42,496 bases of DNA from Spirochaetaceae bacterium (GTDB lineage: Bacteria; Spirochaetota; Spirochaetia; Treponematales; Rectinemataceae), in the NCBI GenBank assembly GCA_025356015.1, contig JANXYO010000094.1, positions 1 through 42,496 of the forward strand, read 5' to 3'. Position 1 is the first letter of the stretch. Every line of letters starts with the position of its first letter. The notes under the pieces are model-generated. The model saw nothing but the letters and a program-made list of their open reading frames with translations, did not search any database and was not told where the DNA came from. The position numbers and the translations under genes were made by a program. Of the stretch, positions 857-16,157 are shown in pieces.

Positions 857-3166
857 ATGGCAAAGGAGCGGGAAGACTCCCTCTTCGCGGGCGCCAGGAG
901 TTTGGGGGGCGGACCAGGACCCCCTTCCGCTTCCGAGCCTCTGGCCGCCCGGATGCGGCCCCGAAGCCTCGACGAGTTCGTCGGCCAGGACCACATCGTC
1001 GGGCCCGGGCGCCTTCTCAGGCGGGCGATCCAGAAGGACCAGCTTTCCTCGATCATCCTCTCTGGCCCACCCGGCACCGGCAAGACCACCCTCGCGCGGG
1101 TCATCGCCAACGGGACGGTGAGCCGTTTTGTCACCCTGAACGCAGTCCTCGCCGGTGTCGCCGACATACGCCAGGCCATCGAGGAGGCGAGGCGCCACCG
1201 GGAACTCTACGACAGGAAGACCATCCTCTTCGTCGACGAGGTCCACCGCTGGAACAAGGCCCAGCAGGACGCCCTCCTACCCTGGGTCGAGAGCGGCACG
1301 ATCGTCCTCATAGGCGCCACCACAGAGAACCCCTTCTTCGAGGTCAACAGGGCCCTCGTCTCAAGGTCGCGGGTCTTCCAGCTCGCCCCCCTCGGCGAGG
1401 AGAGCCTCAGGGCCGTCGCGGCCGCCGCGTTAGGCGACGTCGAAAGGGGCTACGGCCGCTGGAAGGTCGTCTTCGAGCCGGGTGCCCTAGAGCACCTCGT
1501 GGCGGTCTCGGACGGGGACGCGAGGAGCCTGCTCAACGCCCTTGAGCTCGCTGTCGAGACCAGCGCCCAGAGCTGGCCCCCGAGCGAGGGCAGCCAGGTC
1601 TCGGTGGCCATGGCAGCGGCCGAGGAGAGCATCCAGCGCAGGGCTGTGCTCTACGACAAGGACGGGGACTACCACTACGACGCGGCGAGCGCCTTCATAA
1701 AAAGCCTGCGCGGCTCTGATCCCGACGCCGCCCTTTACTGGCTCGCGCGCATGGTCTACGCGGGCGAGGATCCCCGCTTCGTGTTCAGGCGGATGCTCAT
1801 CTCGGCGAGTGAGGACATCGGCCTCGCGGATCCCGCAGCGATCGGCGTCGTGCTCTCCTGCGCCGAGACTTTTGACAGGATCGGCATGCCCGAGGGCCAG
1901 TTCCCCCTCGCCGAAGCCGCCCTCTACCTCGCGACGGCACCCAAGTCCAACTCAGCCCTCGGCTTCTTCGACGCCCTGAAATCGGTCGAGGCCGAGGCCG
2001 CCGAGGTCCCCACCCACATCAAGGACGCGAGCCGCGACGCCAAGGGTTTCGGCCACGGAGAGGGCTACCTGTATCCCCACGCCTTCCGTGACCATTGGGT
2101 CGCCCAGGAATACCTGCCCGAGACCCTGCGAGGCCGGGTCTTCTACCACCCCGGCTCCCTCGGCCTCGAGGGCCAGCGCCGCGACCTCGTGCTCGAGCGC
2201 CGCGAGGCCCAGGTCGCGGCGGCCTACGAGGCCGAGCGCTCCCCGACCGGCGAGGCCGCGCAGGCCGAGGCGGGAGCCGAGCAGGGATCCTGGTCCAAGG
2301 CCGGGGAGGACAAGGCGCGCTGGCGCTCAAGGGCCGAGTCCTCCGCGACGCGGCGCCTGGCCATCGTGAGGGACGCGTTGTACGAACTCGCTTCCCCCTC
2401 CCGGGCCGACCGCATCCTGGTCCTCGACGCGCGGGAGGGCTACCTCGTGTGGGAGGCCCTGAGGCGCTCCGTCGAGGGAACCGTGGCCGCCGCCGTGTCC
2501 CGCCAGGGCGAGAGGGAGCTTGTCGAGCAGTACGCCTCGACCCTCCAGGAGCTCGAGCGTCCCCTCGTCGCCTTCCTGCGGCCCGAATCGGTTTCTGGAG
2601 CGTCCCTCGAGGAGGCCTTCGGCTTTTCGCGCTTCGACCTCGTCCTCGGCCGGGAGCTCTTCGCCCAGAAGGCCGATCCCGCGGGGCTCCTGGCCTCCCT
2701 GCTCTCCGCCATTCCCGGGGCAAGGCTCGTATCGGCCGAGGCCCTGCCCCGCGAGGGAGACCGGCTATCCTCGATCCTCGCGCGCGGCGACCTCGCCCAA
2801 GGCGGCCTCTCCCCAGCCCTCCTCGCCCGCTTCGCCGCTTTCGAGGACGGCTTCTACGCCGACCCCGCTTCTCCCCTCGGCCCGGGCCAGGAAGCCCTCC
2901 GCGCCTCGCTTGAGAAGGCAGGGGCCGCGAGCCTTGGCTTCGAGTGCCGGAGCTCCGAGTATCCTCGGAGCTTCACGCGGCGCGAGCTTGAGGCCTGGTT
3001 CTCCCCCTCCTCGCCCTACGGGGCCGCCGCCGCCCCCAAGCTCGGGGCCGAGGAGCTTTCGCTCATCGCCTCGGCGGCCGAGACGATGACAGAGAAGCGG
3101 CCTGCGAGCTGGCGCTTCTCGATCCTGTATGTCTCGGCGGCCGCGCCTGGCATGAAAGGGGCCTAG
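857..3166 (+). CDS. rarA: RarA/MgsA-type AAA+ ATPase with a fused C-terminal domain
   Basis: RarA ATPases act at stalled replication forks. The clear AAA+ core is in the first ~440 residues: Walker [10 protein letters not shown] near residue 70, Walker B FVDEVHR near 125, the sensor region [11 protein letters not shown], then the tetramerisation region with [11 protein letters not shown] and the family end FYHPG. The protein has 769 residues against about 430-450 for classical RarA. The extra ~300 residues begin with a charged Ala/Glu linker and then read [19 protein letters not shown], which resembles motif I of a Rossmann methyltransferase but lacks the GxGxG core. RarA proteins fused to a domain of unknown function are known in other phyla such as cyanobacteria. 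ATG 857 is chosen because it follows the preceding stop and gives a normal N-terminus; an in-frame ATG at 755 lies inside the upstream gene. The stop overlaps the convergent HAD gene in CTAG. Confidence 0.9.
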
Positions 3167-4095
3167 CGTAGCCAGGGCGGGGAGAGGGGCATTGCGTCGA
3201 AGAAGGCCGCGATGGGCGCCGCCGGGGCCGAGCCGGCCATGAAGGCTCCGAGGTAGCCGGAGGCGAACGAGGCCCAGCTCTCCTCCTCCCTGCCCGGCAC
3301 GATGGGATAGAAGAACGCGCCCGCCGACCTCGCCGCCTCGAGGTCCCCTGGCGCGTCGCCCACGACGAGCACACGCTCGGGCGCATAACGTCCCTCCATG
3401 GCGGCAAGGAGGCTCGGCCCCTTGGGCCCCCGCTCCTGGCCAGCGATCGAGGCGACGTGGTGGAGTATCCCGGCTTCCTGCCAGTCCCGGGCTATGGCCC
3501 CCGAGGGGCCGGCGGTGAGGACGATGAGCTCGGCCTCGCCCAGGAGGGGCAGGGCTGCCCTCGCGCCGGCGAAGGCCGCGGGCGGAGGCAGACCCGCTAT
3601 GGATTCGTCGACGGCAATCGACCAGATGAGGACCTTCTCGAGCATCGGATCGACCTTCCGCGAGGCGAGGGCCGTCTCGAGCCTGCCCCGGGAAGGGGAG
3701 CCCTCGACGGCGAGCCAGGCATCCAGGGCAGCGACGACGGGCTCCTCCCGTTTCATGGCCCTGGCAGTCTGGGGGTGGCGGAGGGCGAGGTGGAGGCAGG
3801 CAGAGAGGCCCTTGAAGCGGTTGATGCCCCTCTGGCGCGAACCGAGGTTGACGAAGCGCCAGATCCCCTCGAGGATCTCCAGATGCTTCGCGGGGCCGAA
3901 CCACCTGGCGAAGACCGGACCGAAGCAGAGGTCGTGCTTGGCGCTCATCGAATCAAAGACCGTGCCGTCAGAGTCGAGGGCGACGAGGATCGCCCGGCTG
4001 GAGGCTTCCCTGCCCCGTCCTCCCTGCCTGGAGCGGGAGGGGCGCGAGGATGCCTGACTGCGCTTGTTGGTGGCCGTGCTGCTGTCCGTCTTCAT
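3163..4095 (-). CDS. HAD-superfamily hydrolase
   Basis: A 310-residue protein with HAD motif I as DSDGTVFDS (nucleophile D41, acid/base D43), a Thr in VLTAG as motif II, a Lys in GPKGPSL as the likely motif III, and VVGDAPGDLEAA as motif IV. This is the layout of phosphatases of the phosphoglycolate-phosphatase type; the substrate cannot be told. The ~100-residue helical cap between motifs I and II is larger than in simple C1-cap members. The first 33 residues are Ser/Arg/Gly-rich and probably disordered. The start at 4095 has no Shine-Dalgarno sequence but has a GATACT box 7 bp upstream, suggesting a leaderless transcript. A longer reading frame exists to 4323 but would run through the divergent folC start. 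The stop shares CTAG with rarA. Confidence 0.8.
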   Translation of the reverse strand: MKTDSSTATNKRSQASSRPSRSRQGGRGREASSRAILVALDSDGTVFDSMSAKHDLCFGPVFARWFGPAKHLEILEGIWRFVNLGSRQRGINRFKGLSACLHLALRHPQTARAMKREEPVVAALDAWLAVEGSPSRGRLETALASRKVDPMLEKVLIWSIAVDESIAGLPPPAAFAGARAALPLLGEAELIVLTAGPSGAIARDWQEAGILHHVASIAGQERGPKGPSLLAAMEGRYAPERVLVVGDAPGDLEAARSAGAFFYPIVPGREEESWASFASGYLGAFMAGSAPAAPIAAFFDAMPLSPPWLR

Positions 4096-5953: not shown

Positions 5954-6547
5954 ATGAAAAACCCCTTCCCTGTCGCGGCCCTCCTCATCCTCGCCGCGAT
6001 CGCGCCTCTTTCGGCTCAAGGGGCCGGCGGGCATGATCAGCAAGAAGGCGTCGTCATCAGGATCGAGGCAGGGGGCGAGGGAAGAGTCGCGGCGACAAAT
6101 GCCCCGGACACCGGCCTCCTCGCCCAGTTCGGCTACGCTGGTGATTTCGGCGCATCCCTCGAATACGGCAGGATCACGGTCTTCAGGTTCGGCCTCAGCC
6201 TCTTCCGCATCGCCCCTTCGGGCATAAGCCCTGACGGGCAGCTTTACCGCGGCTGGGAAGGCACGCGCTTTTCCGCGGAGGCCGGCTATTCCTGGGAGGT
6301 CCTGCACACAAGACTCGCGGTCCTCGCCGGCGGGGCGCTGAGCGCGGCCGGATATTCGGGCACCCCCCTGGTCTTCGCCTATCCCTCCATCCTCCTCGGA
6401 GCCAAGCTCGACCTGGGCAAGAGGGAGGGCTTCGGCTTCTGGCTGGCCCTCCCCCTCGAACTCGTCATCCGCGGCTCACTCCTCACGCCCTCGGCCTCGC
6501 TCGCGGCGGGAATTCGCTGGACAGTGCCCTCGGGGAGGAAAGGATGA
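5954..6547 (+). CDS. Predicted outer-membrane or periplasmic beta-rich protein
   Basis: A 197-residue protein. It begins MKNPFPVAALLILAAIAPLSAQG, a typical type I signal peptide with cleavage after Ala-Gln or nearby. The mature part alternates short hydrophobic/aromatic segments with turns (FGASLEYGRITVFRFGLSLFRI, TRFSAEAGYSWEV, LLGAKLDLG) and ends with ASLAAGIRWTV, as in small outer-membrane beta-barrels. No family was recognised with certainty. An in-frame ATG at 5918 would add residues before the signal peptide and is less likely. The stop overlaps the start of the lipoprotein caspase in ATGA, so the two are probably translated together. Confidence 0.7.
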   Translation: MKNPFPVAALLILAAIAPLSAQGAGGHDQQEGVVIRIEAGGEGRVAATNAPDTGLLAQFGYAGDFGASLEYGRITVFRFGLSLFRIAPSGISPDGQLYRGWEGTRFSAEAGYSWEVLHTRLAVLAGGALSAAGYSGTPLVFAYPSILLGAKLDLGKREGFGFWLALPLELVIRGSLLTPSASLAAGIRWTVPSGRKG

Positions 6548-7488
6548 GGCCCCGGATGCGGGCCGGGACCCTGGCGATCCACGCGGCCGCGCTCTGCTGC
6601 CTGGTCGCGGCGTCTTCCTGCTCCATGATGGGAGGCGACATCACAGCCCCGCGTTATGCGCTCGTATACGGGGTATCGGCCTACCCCTTCGCCCCGGACC
6701 AACTCAGCTACCCCTCGATCGACGCCGCCGACATGAAGGCTGTCCTGGCAGGCTCGGGCTACCAGGTCCTGTCGAGGATGGATCTCGACGCGAGCTCTAC
6801 CAACATAGTCGCCGATATCCAGAGCCTCTCTGGAGTCCCGTCCAACGCCACGGTCCTCGTCTACTTCTCCGGCCACGGCACCCTCGATTCGAACGGCACG
6901 ACCTACTTCATACCCGCCGACGGGATAGATTCCTCGGGGGCATTTGTGCGCTCGGCCTGGATGGACCCGGCCCGTCTATCCAAGGCCCTCGCAGTCCTGC
7001 CCATCAAGAACATCATCGTGATCCTTGATACCTGCTACTCTGGCGGCTTTGTGCAGGCAGGAAGCTCATCAGACAGCGCGCCGCAGAACTACGGTCCCAA
7101 CGACGGCGGCGTGACCCCCGATGTCTTCTCGGCGGCGATGGGGAAGTTCGGCGTGCTTCTTGCGGCGAACGCAGGGGAAACAGGGAAGGCGGCACCGATC
7201 GTCATATCGGCGGCGGGCTCGAGGGAGCTCTCCTACGAGACCGCCTCATTGGCCAACGGGGTCTTCACCCATTACCTTCTTGAGTCGGCGCGGAATGGGG
7301 ATGACAACGGTGATGGCTATGTAACCACGACCGAGGCCTACGCGTATTCATCAAAGGCCATCCAGTCTAAGTGGAACGCTATCTACTCTGACTACTACAC
7401 CTCCGGATCGCTGAACGAGCCTATCTTCATGGACTTCCTCCCCCACATCTCAGGCGGGGTGAGGGACCTGGTCCTTTTCAAGCGCTAG
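6544..7488 (+). CDS. Lipoprotein caspase-like peptidase (family C14) with EF-hand loop
   Basis: A 314-residue caspase/metacaspase-fold peptidase. The catalytic pair is visible: His111 in VYFSGHG and Cys164 in ILDTCYSGG, with the normal beta-strand context (RYALVYGVSAYP at the start of the fold). The N-terminus has a hydrophobic signal and Cys26 in VAASSC, a loose lipobox of the kind seen in spirochaetes, so the enzyme is probably anchored outside the cytoplasm. Residues 253-264 form a complete 12-residue EF-hand loop (D, N, D, G, E at positions 1, 3, 5, 6, 12), suggesting calcium binding; many metacaspases are calcium-activated. The ATG overlaps the upstream stop by 4 bp. The natural substrate is unknown. 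The stop is shared with the convergent Nudix gene in CTAG. Confidence 0.88.
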   Translation: MRPRMRAGTLAIHAAALCCLVAASSCSMMGGDITAPRYALVYGVSAYPFAPDQLSYPSIDAADMKAVLAGSGYQVLSRMDLDASSTNIVADIQSLSGVPSNATVLVYFSGHGTLDSNGTTYFIPADGIDSSGAFVRSAWMDPARLSKALAVLPIKNIIVILDTCYSGGFVQAGSSSDSAPQNYGPNDGGVTPDVFSAAMGKFGVLLAANAGETGKAAPIVISAAGSRELSYETASLANGVFTHYLLESARNGDDNGDGYVTTTEAYAYSSKAIQSKWNAIYSDYYTSGSLNEPIFMDFLPHISGGVRDLVLFKR

Positions 7489-11593: not shown

Positions 11594-11628
11594 CCGAGAT
11601 CACTCGGCTGCGAGTGCGGGGGTGCCGG

Positions 11629-12678
11629 ATGAGCGACAGTCATGAAACCGGGTTCTCGCTCGATCGGTCGATGGAAGAGCTGGCGAGGAGGGCGACCGAG
11701 CTCGCCTACGCCAGACAGCCTGAATACCTGAATTACGGCGAAGAGGGAAGGAAGAAAAGCCAGAGGGACATGGGCTATCATCTGGCCTACCTTGCCGAGG
11801 CGGTGAGGAGCGGCGTCGACGCCCTCTTCCTGGACTATCTCGACTGGGCCGCGACCCTGTTCCAATCGATGCATCTGCCCGACAAGACAATGTCAGATGT
11901 GCTGCAGTGCATCCTCGATGCCCTGAGGGAGATAGCGGGACACAGGAACATCGAGGCGGCCGAGCGCCTCCTCCTCGCGGGCATTTCCCGCGCCAGGGAG
12001 TCACCTGCCGAGGCCGAATCCCCGAGTCCGGCCGAGGCCCCCTTTGCTGAGCTCGCTTCCCTCTACAGCTCCCTCCTGCTCGATGGCAAGTCACGCGAGG
12101 CGGGAGAGCTCATCCGAAAGGCCATGGAGGAGGGGACGGGGATAAAGGACATCTATCTCGGGGTCTTCCAGCCAGTCCTGAGGGAGATAGGCCGTTTCTG
12201 GCATACGGGGAGGATAAGCGTGGCCAAGGAGCATTTCTGCACGGCCGCCACCTCCATGATCATGGCGCGCATCGTGCCCGAACATCGACCGCAGAAGACG
12301 GGGGCGAGGATAATCACGGCCTGCGTGGGCGACGAACTCCACTCCCTCGGCATCCGCATGGTCACGGATTTCTTCGAGCTCGATGGCTGGGACACGCGCT
12401 ATCTGGGCCCGGCCATGCCGCCGGCAGCGATCTCGGGCATTCTGGCCGAGTGGAAGCCGGAGCTGCTCGCCCTCTCGGTCACCATGACCTTCCACCTCTC
12501 CCAGCTCAGGACCGTCATAGCGAGCGCCCGTGCGGCGGGGGGACCCGACCTCAAGATCATCGTGGGTGGCTATCCCTTCCGTATCTCGACTGAGCTTTGG
12601 CGCAGCATGGGAGCCGATGGCTGCGGCCGCGATGCCAAGGAGGCAGTCGAGGTCGCCACTTCCCTCCTAGTGAGCTAG
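11629..12678 (+). CDS. B12-binding sensor protein with CarH-type light-sensing motifs
   Basis: A 349-residue protein. Residues ~10-115 form a helical module with YLNYGEEGRKKSQRDMGYHLAYLAEAV, found in front of some B12 domains. Residues ~140-215 are the four-helix cap, with W191-H192 and E201-H202 spaced exactly as in the Wx9EH motif of the CarH photoreceptor. Residues ~220-349 are the Rossmann B12 domain, with GDELHSLG giving His238 as the likely lower axial ligand. In CarH the Trp and His of the cap cover adenosylcobalamin and react to light. No MerR DNA-binding domain is present, so the output must be through another protein. A GTG start at 11614 is also in frame. It lies 35 bp after the carboxypeptidase gene and is convergent with the kinase ending the chemotaxis operon. 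Confidence 0.85.
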   Translation: MSDSHETGFSLDRSMEELARRATELAYARQPEYLNYGEEGRKKSQRDMGYHLAYLAEAVRSGVDALFLDYLDWAATLFQSMHLPDKTMSDVLQCILDALREIAGHRNIEAAERLLLAGISRARESPAEAESPSPAEAPFAELASLYSSLLLDGKSREAGELIRKAMEEGTGIKDIYLGVFQPVLREIGRFWHTGRISVAKEHFCTAATSMIMARIVPEHRPQKTGARIITACVGDELHSLGIRMVTDFFELDGWDTRYLGPAMPPAAISGILAEWKPELLALSVTMTFHLSQLRTVIASARAAGGPDLKIIVGGYPFRISTELWRSMGADGCGRDAKEAVEVATSLLVS

Positions 12679-12715
12679 GGTGGCAGCAATCCCGTGGGCA
12701 GGCTCGCCCTCCCTC

Positions 12716-14902
12716 CTAGTCCCTGAATTCGATCCTGTAGCTCGTGCCGCCCCGGCCGGCCGAGCTGATCGAGCCGTCGATCTGCCGTACCAGCATCCCG
12801 ACAAGCTGGAGGCCGAAACCTGCGGATTTCTCGACGCTGCTGGCCTCGGGCATGCCGAGCCCGTTGTCGGCGAAAAGGATCGATACCCGGTTCCCCACCT
12901 TCGCGAGCTCAAGGGAGATCTCCGCGTCCTGCCTGCCCGTGAAGGCGTGTTTCATCGCGTTGGTCATGAGCTCATTCAGGAGGATGCCGAGCACAGACAA
13001 GATCCTCGTGCTCATGACGATGTCCTCGATCCTCGTCCTGAGCCTGACCTCGTGGCCGTTCGGGAAGATGGCGAGGATCTCGGCCATCAGGGCCGGAAGA
13101 TAGTCCCTGACGGAGATCGCGCTCTCGTTCTCGGAGCGGTAAAGCTTGTCGTAGAGGACCTTCATGCTCTGGAGGCGGCCAGCCGCGCTCATCAGGACGG
13201 CACTGGCATCTGGGCTGTCCTGGAACCTCGCCTGGATCGCGAGGAGGCTCATGATAGTGTTGATGTTGTTCTTCACCCGATGGTGCACCTCCTTCAGGAT
13301 GATCTCCTTCTCGCGCAGAAGACGCCTGTTCTCCTCCTCGGCCAGGACGCGCTGCGAGATGTCGCTCAGGGTTCCAAGCATCCGCAGCGCCTTGCCAGCG
13401 GCATCCTGCTTCACGGCATTGCCGCGGGTGCAGACCCAGAGCCATGAGCCATTGCCCGTCCGCATCCGGAAGTCGATGGAAAAACCCTTGCCCCTCGTGG
13501 TGCAGCGCAGCAGTTCCTCCTCCACCCTTTCCAGGTCCTCGGGATGGACCAGCAGGCGCCAGCTTTCGTAGTTGGCCGGGAATTCCCCGTCCTCGAAACC
13601 GAGGAGGGCGTAGTAAAGCGGGCTAAAGAATGCCCTGCCGCTCGGGACATGCCAATCCCAGAAACCGTCCATCACCGCGGAAAGCGTCAGGCTGTAGCGC
13701 TCCTCGCTCTCGCGCAGGGCCTCCTCGGAGCGCTTGCGCTCGGTTATGTCGATCACAATGCCGAGGTAGCTGCGCACCCGGCCCGAGGAATCCCTGATGG
13801 GCTTGCCGCGGGACATGTTCCACCGGATCGTTCCATCTGCGTCGCGGACCCGCCACTCCACATTGAGCTCGCCACCATTTCTCACGGCCTCGGCGACGGC
13901 CATCTCGGCCCCGGCCCTGTCTTCGGGCATGATCGATCCCAGCCAGGCCTCGTAGGATGACGGCACACAATGTGGATCGAGGCCGTAGAGCCGCCATAGC
14001 TCCTCGGACCAGAGGTTCTCGTTCGTATCGAGGCTCCACTCCCAGGTCCCCGCCTTCGCCGCTTCCAGGGCAAGGTGCAGGCGTTCCTCGCTCTCCCTGA
14101 GGGCGGCCTCGCCGCGTTTGCGAGCCGAAATGTCATGATAGTTGAGTACTATTCCCTCGATGTCGGGATCGCCCAGGCTGTTGACCGCGGTGAGCTCGAT
14201 CCAGCTATAGCTCCCGTCCTTGTGCTTGTACCTGTACTCAACCGTCGCCTTGGCCTTGTCCTGCGACACCAGGGCCGCGAAAGCCGTCCTGATCCGCTCG
14301 ATGTCGCCAGGGTGGACCGTGTCCCAGCCGTCGGTTCCCACCAGGTCCTCCGGCTTCCAGCCGAAGAGGCCCTCGATGTTCGGGCTCTTGTATTTCATGA
14401 TGCCGTCCGCAGCCATGATGCCGATCACGTCGCCTATGTTCGCCAGCATGGCGCCTGGGAGGGCATCCTTCCCGCACGCAGGGGATTCGCCCTGGTGCCT
14501 TTGCTGGAACTGCCTCGCCTCGAAGAGCCTGAAGGCCATCTTTATCGACGCGTCGAGGACGAACATCCCGGAATTCTTCAAGACATAGCCGTAGGATGTG
14601 ATCTTCTCGGTCTTCTCGACGATGTTCCTCTCGGTGTGGGAGGACAGGAACACCACGGGGACCTTGTGCGTCCTCAGTATCTCCTCGGCGGCCTCGGTGC
14701 CATCCATGCCCTCCCCGAGGTCGATGTCCATGAGCACGAGATCGATGGGCGGGGAGGCCCCGCGGACGGCAGCTATGGCCTTCTCGCCGTCACCGGCATG
14801 GATGACGAGATAGCCTTCCCTGCGGAGCTCCCTGGCCTCGATCATGGCGATTATCGCCTCGTCTTCCACGAGGAGGATCCTCTTCTTCCCAGACTCATCC
14901 AT
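12716..14902 (-). CDS. Receiver-PAS-histidine kinase (HisKA_2 type)
   Basis: A 728-residue soluble signalling protein. Residues 1-125 are a receiver domain with the acceptor D59 in VLMDIDLGEGMDG. Three PAS/PAC units follow, each ending in a DIS/DIT-type motif (HDISARKRGE, IDITERKRSE, SDISQRVLAE). The kinase region has EVHHRVKNNINTIMSLL with the likely phospho-His near 540, then the ATPase N-box NELMTNAMKHAF and G1 DNGLGMP. The HisKA_2 family often works with unusual receivers, as in general stress or light signalling. No transmembrane segment is present, so signals are cytoplasmic. The ATG overlaps the stop of the upstream chemoreceptor by 8 bp, placing it last in the chemotaxis operon. The B12 sensor gene is its convergent neighbour. 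Confidence 0.88.
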   Translation of the reverse strand: MDESGKKRILLVEDEAIIAMIEARELRREGYLVIHAGDGEKAIAAVRGASPPIDLVLMDIDLGEGMDGTEAAEEILRTHKVPVVFLSSHTERNIVEKTEKITSYGYVLKNSGMFVLDASIKMAFRLFEARQFQQRHQGESPACGKDALPGAMLANIGDVIGIMAADGIMKYKSPNIEGLFGWKPEDLVGTDGWDTVHPGDIERIRTAFAALVSQDKAKATVEYRYKHKDGSYSWIELTAVNSLGDPDIEGIVLNYHDISARKRGEAALRESEERLHLALEAAKAGTWEWSLDTNENLWSEELWRLYGLDPHCVPSSYEAWLGSIMPEDRAGAEMAVAEAVRNGGELNVEWRVRDADGTIRWNMSRGKPIRDSSGRVRSYLGIVIDITERKRSEEALRESEERYSLTLSAVMDGFWDWHVPSGRAFFSPLYYALLGFEDGEFPANYESWRLLVHPEDLERVEEELLRCTTRGKGFSIDFRMRTGNGSWLWVCTRGNAVKQDAAGKALRMLGTLSDISQRVLAEEENRRLLREKEIILKEVHHRVKNNINTIMSLLAIQARFQDSPDASAVLMSAAGRLQSMKVLYDKLYRSENESAISVRDYLPALMAEILAIFPNGHEVRLRTRIEDIVMSTRILSVLGILLNELMTNAMKHAFTGRQDAEISLELAKVGNRVSILFADNGLGMPEASSVEKSAGFGLQLVGMLVRQIDGSISSAGRGGTSYRIEFRD

Positions 14903-16157
14903 CGAGCCCGTCCTCCCTGCCCGCCCCCTCGGAGCCGAGCTCACGGACGCGGTCCGATTCCTTGCGCATCTCGAGGAAGGCCCTCATCATCGACCCGGCG
15001 TCGCTTCGGATCGTGGCCGCGATCTCCACGACAGTCTCCAGGGAGGCCTTGGCCTTGCCTATGCTCGATTCGGATACCTCGATGGCCTCTCCCGTGCTCG
15101 AGGTGAGTCTTCCTATCCGCGCGACCGAGTCGAGAAGGCCGGATGCGCCGATCGACATGGTCTGCATCCCGTCGGTGAGCTCCTCGAACATGGCCGCCAT
15201 CCCGCGGATCTCGGCCGATACGTTCGCGAAGAACTGGATCGCCTCGGACGCCTCCCCCGAGCACTCGCGTATCGCTGCCTTGGTCTCCGAGAGGGTATCC
15301 GAGATGGACCGCGAGCTCTTGGCCGTCTCCACAGAGAGGAGGCGGACCTGACCTGCTATGACGGCGAAGCCCCTTCCCGACTTGCCCGCATGGGCGGCCT
15401 CGATCGAGGCGTTCATCGCGAGGAGGTTCGTGCGGTCGGCAACCTCGGTGATGAGGGCGTTCATCGCGTTCATCTTCTCGGCCGAGCCGCTCATCCTCGC
15501 CACCGCCTTCTGGATGGAGTCGAGGCGCTTCGAGGCCCCGTCGGAGAGGAGGAGCAGCTCCTTCGCCCTCTCGCTCTTCCTGCGCGAGGCCTCGGCGGCC
15601 GCGGTCAGGGAGCTCGCCATCGACTCGACGGCTGTCGACTCCGAGGCGACCTCCCCCGAATAGGACTTGAGGACCTCCCTGAGGCGGCCCTGGCTCGCCA
15701 CGATCATTTCGTTCGACTGGGAAGTGTCCCTCAAGACCTGGTTCAGGACCTCGATGCCGTCGGTCGTGCCCGAAACCAGTCCCTCGAGCCTGTGGATCGC
15801 GCCGACGGTCCGGTCAGCCGCGGCCTTTATCACAAGCCTGGTCTCGTGGGCTTTCTTGAGCGCGATGACGGTGGCGTCGTTCGACCTCGTGTAGCGCTGC
15901 GAAAGCTCGCCGAGCTCGGATTCCTTTGCCTTTGCAAGCCGGCCTTGGATGCCTATGCCCGCGGCCGAGAGGGCGCCGACCAGGACAAAGGCGAGGAGGC
16001 CCACCAGGTTCGCCAGCATCGGCGCCCCGGCCGACGAAAGCGCGGCCAGCGCCTGCGCGGCCAGCCCCAGGCCCGACAGGCCGACACTCGCCATCAAAAG
16101 CAGCCTGGCCGCGCCTTGGCCGGGGCGGGCAGCCTGTATCACGCTCCTGTCTTTCAT
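14895..16157 (-). CDS. Short chemoreceptor without a periplasmic sensor domain
   Basis: A 420-residue methyl-accepting chemotaxis protein. Residues ~17-70 hold two hydrophobic helices (LLLMASVGLSGLGLAAQAL and LANLVGLLAFVLVGALSAAG) with only a few residues between them, so there is practically no extracytoplasmic part. The rest is helical and includes the signalling tip: RTNLLAMNASIEAAHAGKSGRGFAVIAGQVR near residue 240. A classical HAMP domain was not seen. It may sense membrane or cytoplasmic cues or pair with another receptor or with a soluble partner. Its ATG shares one base with the cheX stop (TGATG). Confidence 0.85.
   Translation of the reverse strand: MKDRSVIQAARPGQGAARLLLMASVGLSGLGLAAQALAALSSAGAPMLANLVGLLAFVLVGALSAAGIGIQGRLAKAKESELGELSQRYTRSNDATVIALKKAHETRLVIKAAADRTVGAIHRLEGLVSGTTDGIEVLNQVLRDTSQSNEMIVASQGRLREVLKSYSGEVASESTAVESMASSLTAAAEASRRKSERAKELLLLSDGASKRLDSIQKAVARMSGSAEKMNAMNALITEVADRTNLLAMNASIEAAHAGKSGRGFAVIAGQVRLLSVETAKSSRSISDTLSETKAAIRECSGEASEAIQFFANVSAEIRGMAAMFEELTDGMQTMSIGASGLLDSVARIGRLTSSTGEAIEVSESSIGKAKASLETVVEIAATIRSDAGSMMRAFLEMRKESDRVRELGSEGAGREDGLDG

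Follow-up and report, generated by a model that had tools for sequence, protein, structure and literature searches.

A standalone, globin-first photocobilin lies convergent to a chemotaxis operon in a Spirochaetaceae genome

Introduction

Photocobilins with a C-terminal B12 domain, as well as standalone ones, have already been described, and for SasPcob/AbPcob the photochemistry, the opening of the dimer and the contact-dependent activation of a separate enzyme were measured (PMC10979010). SasPcob from Saccharothrix syringae (PDB 8J2W/8J2X; PMC10979010) resembles the protein analyzed here in being standalone, in having the same two parts and in carrying the W/EH signature together with a lower-ligand His. 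It differs in its domain order, which is reversed with respect to the globin-first order of our protein, and the identity between both proteins in the B12 half is only about 27%. The sensor parts of AbDPcob, a photocobilin-diguanylate cyclase fusion from Acidimicrobiaceae (8J2Y), are also the same, but its output is fused, whereas some relatives of our gene have the diguanylate cyclase as a separate downstream gene; moreover, in AbDPcob a His replaces the bilin-contact Asp and biliverdin binding is weak. CarH from Thermus thermophilus (5C8A and others) shares the B12 core, the WH...EH residues and the lower-ligand His (Z of about 21), but it combines this core with a MerR DNA-binding domain and lacks the globin, the reverse of the situation in the protein studied here.

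To our knowledge, only two photocobilins have been characterized in depth, both of them actinobacterial. The photoglobin-B12 family reported by Schneider et al. 2022 (cited in PMC10979010 and PMC10151467) reportedly associates globin and B12 domains with signal-transduction partners; unlike that family, the member described here is without its co-encoded partner. For the globin-first subfamily, no experimental work was found in the literature.

Results

A globin and a CarH-type B12 module in one chain

The genome under study has 4.17 Mb and is 99.4% complete; the window, that is, the whole 42.5-kb stretch of DNA that was analyzed, corresponds to its contig C121. An open reading frame spanning positions 11614-12678 on the + strand encodes a protein of 349 aa from the ATG at 11629, with a GTG at 11614 as a possible alternative start. 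It is preceded on the same strand by a D-Ala-D-Ala carboxypeptidase gene and lies outside the chemotaxis (che) operon. The following features were assigned:

11629..12678 (+): photocobilin, 349-aa photoglobin plus CarH-type B12-binding protein (ORF, Pfam, solved-structure matches, AF2)
11629..12030 (+): N-terminal photoglobin (bilin-binding-type globin), residues 1-134 (sub-threshold Pfam Phycobilisome match, AF2 fold match, D47/W73 conservation)
11767-11769 and 11845-11847 (+): codons of Asp47 and Trp73, respectively, in the photoglobin domain
12037..12294 (+): B12-binding_2 four-helix bundle with W191-H192...E201-H202 (codons 12199-12234; Pfam 4.5e-15)
12295..12675 (+): Rossmann-like B12-binding domain carrying the lower ligand, His238 (codons 12334-12342 for E236-L-H238; Pfam 9e-21)

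The two motifs on which an initial annotation of this DNA had relied are indeed present, W191-H192 and E201-H202 with the exact spacing of Wx9EH (WHTGRISVAKEH, residues 191-202, numbering from ATG 11629) and the lower-ligand motif E236-L-H238-S-L-G. Both appeared together in 206 of 200,000 residue shuffles of the protein, and a chance origin is excluded because they occupy homologous positions in a B12 domain that superposes on the solved photocobilin and CarH structures. Pfam recognized B12-binding and B12-binding_2 but no DNA-binding domain, in agreement with the earlier statement on the sensor; in particular, no match was obtained to the MerR-type DNA-binding domain of CarH regulators, and the N-terminus is a globin instead, although the Pfam Phycobilisome match to this region (E of 0.004) was below cut-off. 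The NCBIfam CarH model scored the protein at 52 bits, compared to a cut-off of 400.

Among proteins of solved structure, the photocobilins 8J2W, 8J2X, and 8J2Y matched the sequence best; they contain both parts as well, but in the opposite order. An AF2 model of the whole protein reached a pLDDT of 93, and its B12 half (residues 137-349) superposed on SasPcob 8J2W with a Z of 27.5 and an rmsd of 1.8 Å over 208 residues. Since the matches that Foldseek returned for the complete model were to its B12 half, the N-terminal domain was modeled separately (pLDDT of 89). Its best fold match was the bilin domain of SasPcob (Z of 14.9), and nearly all the others among the matches listed were phycobiliproteins or engineered bilin-binding proteins. 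While Z values of 13-15 for a helical domain are weak alone, the globin assignment is strong because nearly all the matches listed bind bilin, and the N-terminal domain is predicted from these models to have the phycobiliprotein fold (photoglobin), in the same chain as the B12 domains.

Hence, 11629-12678 encodes a standalone photocobilin in the order globin then B12, and not merely a CarH-like protein. The initial designation as a CarH-like B12 light sensor had correctly captured the CarH-type AdoCbl site but had missed the bilin-type globin and with it the identity of the protein. By analogy with its characterized homologues, it is probably a B12-dependent photoreceptor that acts on another protein. 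As photocobilins are an already known kind of receptor, what is of interest here is the loss of the partner and the source of the bilin.

Cofactor-binding residues are invariant

Conservation was analyzed in an alignment of 90 sequences comprising the window protein and 89 homologues, mostly from non-spirochaetes. Asp47, Trp73, Trp191, Glu201, His202, and His238 were identical in all 90; Glu201 and His202, like Trp254, were partly selected for, as most loci had been found with two conserved peptides around these residues, and the conservation of Asp47, Trp73, Trp191, and His238 is free of such selection. Asp47 and Trp73 align with Asp270 and Trp296 of SasPcob, which contact biliverdin or the corrin (PMC10979010). 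At position 192, directly after the Trp, the window protein and 13 others carry His, as CarH does, and most homologues as well as SasPcob carry Gln. We take His192 to be the counterpart of His132, the upper ligand of CarH in its light state, and with a His at this position a CarH-like bis-His light state would be possible in the window photocobilin. The protein departs from otherwise conserved positions by Q184L, L190F, Q209S, Y216V, and A261P, and in a quick tree its terminal branch measured 0.51 versus 0.30 for its sister, so that decay of an orphan photocobilin is conceivable.

Relatives encode a partner directly downstream

In 82 of the 90 distinct loci outside the window, a co-directional ORF begins no more than 133 bp past the photocobilin stop (no more than 40 bp in 76), and many of these pairs show the 4-base overlap of coupled genes. 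HATPase_c was found in 67 of the 82 downstream products, HisKA in 62, and GGDEF in 8, and a coiled-coil pattern of the form LNNELVNxQREL in 63 of 80. The conserved partner of the photocobilin is thus the co-directional downstream gene, a kinase or a diguanylate cyclase, and not the che genes. Modulation of a separate diguanylate cyclase by contact with a standalone photocobilin has been measured (PMC10979010).

Most partners also have in common a conserved N-terminal domain (about 110-140 aa) with no Pfam match, such as residues 1-141 of the product of L065:6928-7350 (+), which is a candidate docking or sensing domain. The pair occurs in archaea as well (L089, L119, L128, and L137, from Methanolobus, Methanohalophilus, and Lokiarchaeota bins).

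The partner is missing from the window genome

The window photocobilin has no co-directional downstream partner, and 37 bp separate its stop codon from that of a convergent kinase gene. A profile search of the same genome for the partner N-terminal domain found none, and the partner coiled coil was detected only on contig C2, beside a decayed second photocobilin. In this second copy (L144, about 2590-3460, -) the globin is frame-shifted and part of the B12 domain is missing; a truncated partner with the coiled-coil motif directly follows it.

In the nearest relative with the gene (G002), the photocobilin is 59% identical to that of the window, and its own co-directional kinase begins immediately past the photocobilin stop. 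Beyond this kinase lies, in convergent orientation, a 90-residue tail of the receiver-PAS-kinase of the window (62% identical), which adjoins an unrelated AAA+ gene. The simplest history is an ancestral order of photocobilin, partner kinase and convergent receiver-PAS-kinase, with deletion of the partner on the window lineage. No match to the window carboxypeptidase was found within 261 bp upstream of the G002 photocobilin.

The best match to a partner kinase elsewhere in the window genome, on contig C69, was considered as a relocated partner and rejected, as only the kinase core is common and the gene adjoins a different corrinoid protein. That place (L142:7450-9964, +) holds, one after another, genes for a histidine kinase, for a corrinoid-binding protein lacking the EH light motif and for a protein resembling URO-D-type methyltransferases; a similar corrinoid/URO-D/kinase set at L044:5676-9047 (-) is divergent from the photocobilin of that locus, and the corrinoid protein is also present in L043. 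Another apparent orphan, in a Sphaerochaetaceae bin (L121:1005-5447), is divergent from a TPR-PAS-GGDEF gene; the sequence from a Fermentibacteraceae bin (L126) is identical to it, so one of the two may be a binning error.

Chromophore supply

Adenosyltransferase genes are present in the window genome, which can therefore convert cobalamin to AdoCbl. A search for heme oxygenase (PF01126) was negative in this genome, where a known way to biliverdin is consequently lacking, and equally in 12 spirochaete relatives that have a photocobilin. Among the photocobilin genomes searched, 8 of 57 had one, some of these genomes being incomplete and other heme-degrading families being only partly covered. 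Searches for HutW/ChuW (NCBIfam HutW TIGR04107) in 35 genomes gave no match above cut-off, only sub-cut-off radical-SAM matches; as weak HutW matches occurred in all 14 control genomes, this result tells no more than that a clear member is absent.

In Candidatus Magnetocorallium, a heme oxygenase gene (L107:9214-9870, +; Pfam 1.2e-55) is located directly upstream of the photocobilin, which is followed by kinase and receiver-domain genes, an arrangement that looks like a whole bilin-photoreceptor operon. This neighbor speaks for biliverdin being the natural chromophore in organisms with oxygen-using enzymes.

The chemotaxis operon is not a conserved neighbor

The genes facing the photocobilin were assigned as follows:

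12716..14944 (-): convergent histidine kinase (receiver-PAS-PAS-PAS-HisKA_2) that closes the chemotaxis operon (Pfam)
14895-16157 (-): short chemoreceptor, MCP signaling domain only (Pfam)

The - strand carries genes for CheA, a long MCP, CheW, CheR, CheB, CheD, CheY, CheX, and the short MCP, ending in the convergent kinase, which consists of a receiver, three PAS_3 domains, HisKA_2 and HATPase and has an in-frame ATG at 14902, the end point given in the initial annotation. Pfam and gene order thus agree with the initial annotation that the kinase is convergent and closes a chemotaxis operon, and that the chemoreceptor next to it is sensor-less. The same annotation had proposed B12-based light control of motility through either protein. 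No che operon was found beside the photocobilin in any of the 90 other loci (several contigs are short, so that absence is less firm for some loci), and a few of them contain single MCP, CheB-like, or CheR-like matches but no operon. One relative (G040) has a che operon on contig C128 (CheA, long MCP, CheW, CheR, CheB, CheD, CheY, short MCP), where the gene directly after the short MCP encodes a receiver 54% identical over 123 aa to that of the window kinase; its photocobilin is on contig C87, apart from this operon, with its own diguanylate cyclase. Since G040 keeps them together on a contig without a photocobilin, the receiver-kinase belongs with the che operon and not with the sensor. The pair is thus not conserved in relatives, with the che operon on another contig in G040 and only the kinase tail in G002, and on that account the proposed link to motility is not supported. 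The coiled-coil motif common to most partners is absent from the convergent kinase, and a literature search by title or abstract revealed no paper tying a B12 photoreceptor to chemotaxis.

Discussion

Our results make it likely that the window encodes a standalone photocobilin, switched by light via AdoCbl, that has been orphaned from its co-encoded partner and has the convergent kinase as a neighbor by chance of gene order. By comparison with the characterized homologues, the protein would be a soluble dimeric photoreceptor. In the dark, AdoCbl would be held between the helix bundle and the Rossmann domain, His238 would serve as its lower ligand, Trp191 would stack on the ribose, and Glu201-His202 would bridge the dimer. 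Under green light the cobalt-carbon bond would break, whereupon the adenosyl group would leave and the dimer would open; a linear tetrapyrrole, if present in the globin pocket (Asp47, Trp73), could let longer wavelengths trigger the same reaction. The signal would then reach, through contact between proteins, a kinase or diguanylate cyclase encoded by another gene, which in relatives is the next one. With this gene gone, the orphan sensor may use an unlinked partner or be in the course of being lost.

That the photocobilin acts instead on the convergent receiver-PAS-kinase or on the sensor-less chemoreceptor, and so places motility under light control, appears highly improbable. The two stop codons are indeed only 37 bp apart, the kinase tail in G002 is also convergent, so that the neighborhood is older than the window genome, and the nearest kinase could have taken on a sensor left without its own partner. 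However, the genes are convergent and not co-transcribed, the kinase lacks the coiled coil of the partners, no che operon adjoins the photocobilin in the 90 other loci, G040 has both on separate contigs, and G002 keeps the photocobilin with its own kinase and just the tail of the convergent one. A vestigial gene, with the partner kinase lost and a sensor without output decaying like the second copy, is a poor candidate as well: the missing partner, the frame-broken copy with its truncated partner on contig C2 and the somewhat longer branch in the quick tree fit it, but the open frame is of normal length, the cofactor residues are all intact, the fold is predicted with high confidence, and the other apparent orphans (L121 and L126, identical sequences) are intact too.

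We also regard it as unlikely that the protein reports AdoCbl supply (or the redox state through B12) rather than light, with a globin that is structural or binds a non-photoactive tetrapyrrole. Heme oxygenase is lacking in the window genome, the 12 spirochaete relatives and most photocobilin genomes searched, and HutW/ChuW above cut-off in 35 genomes, as this reading would have it. AbDPcob works despite poor bilin binding and its activity is altered by AdoCbl alone (PMC10979010), and among the hosts of photocobilins are archaea and groups commonly encountered in dark habitats, in which B12 sensing rather than light sensing is conceivable. Against it stand the invariance of the light-responsive W/EH signature and of the bilin contacts D47 and W73, the methyltransferase-type corrinoid protein of the same genome, which unlike the photocobilin has no EH, and the homologue co-encoded with a heme oxygenase (L107). 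Returning to the light-switched orphan sensor, we tentatively raise the further idea, which we hold to be rather doubtful, that a two-chromophore photoreceptor family with an invariant bilin pocket occurs in many bacteria and archaea without a recognized heme oxygenase and scavenges its second chromophore, a bilin, or obtains it from an unknown, perhaps oxygen-independent, route, and that the window member, no longer tied to a kinase of its own, has turned to a different output.

The invariant bilin pocket, set against the missing heme oxygenases, makes the question of the bound tetrapyrrole testable. The globin-first, partnerless spirochaete member is a direct test case for standalone signaling, and further test cases are offered by the conserved two-gene module of many phyla, archaea included, in which the photocobilin gene precedes that of a cytoplasmic kinase or diguanylate cyclase, in most cases with the unannotated N-terminal domain. 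Elsewhere in the window, at 6544-7488 (+), a lipoprotein-like gene resembles, as judged by eye, a caspase-type peptidase (SGHG and DTCYSG motifs).
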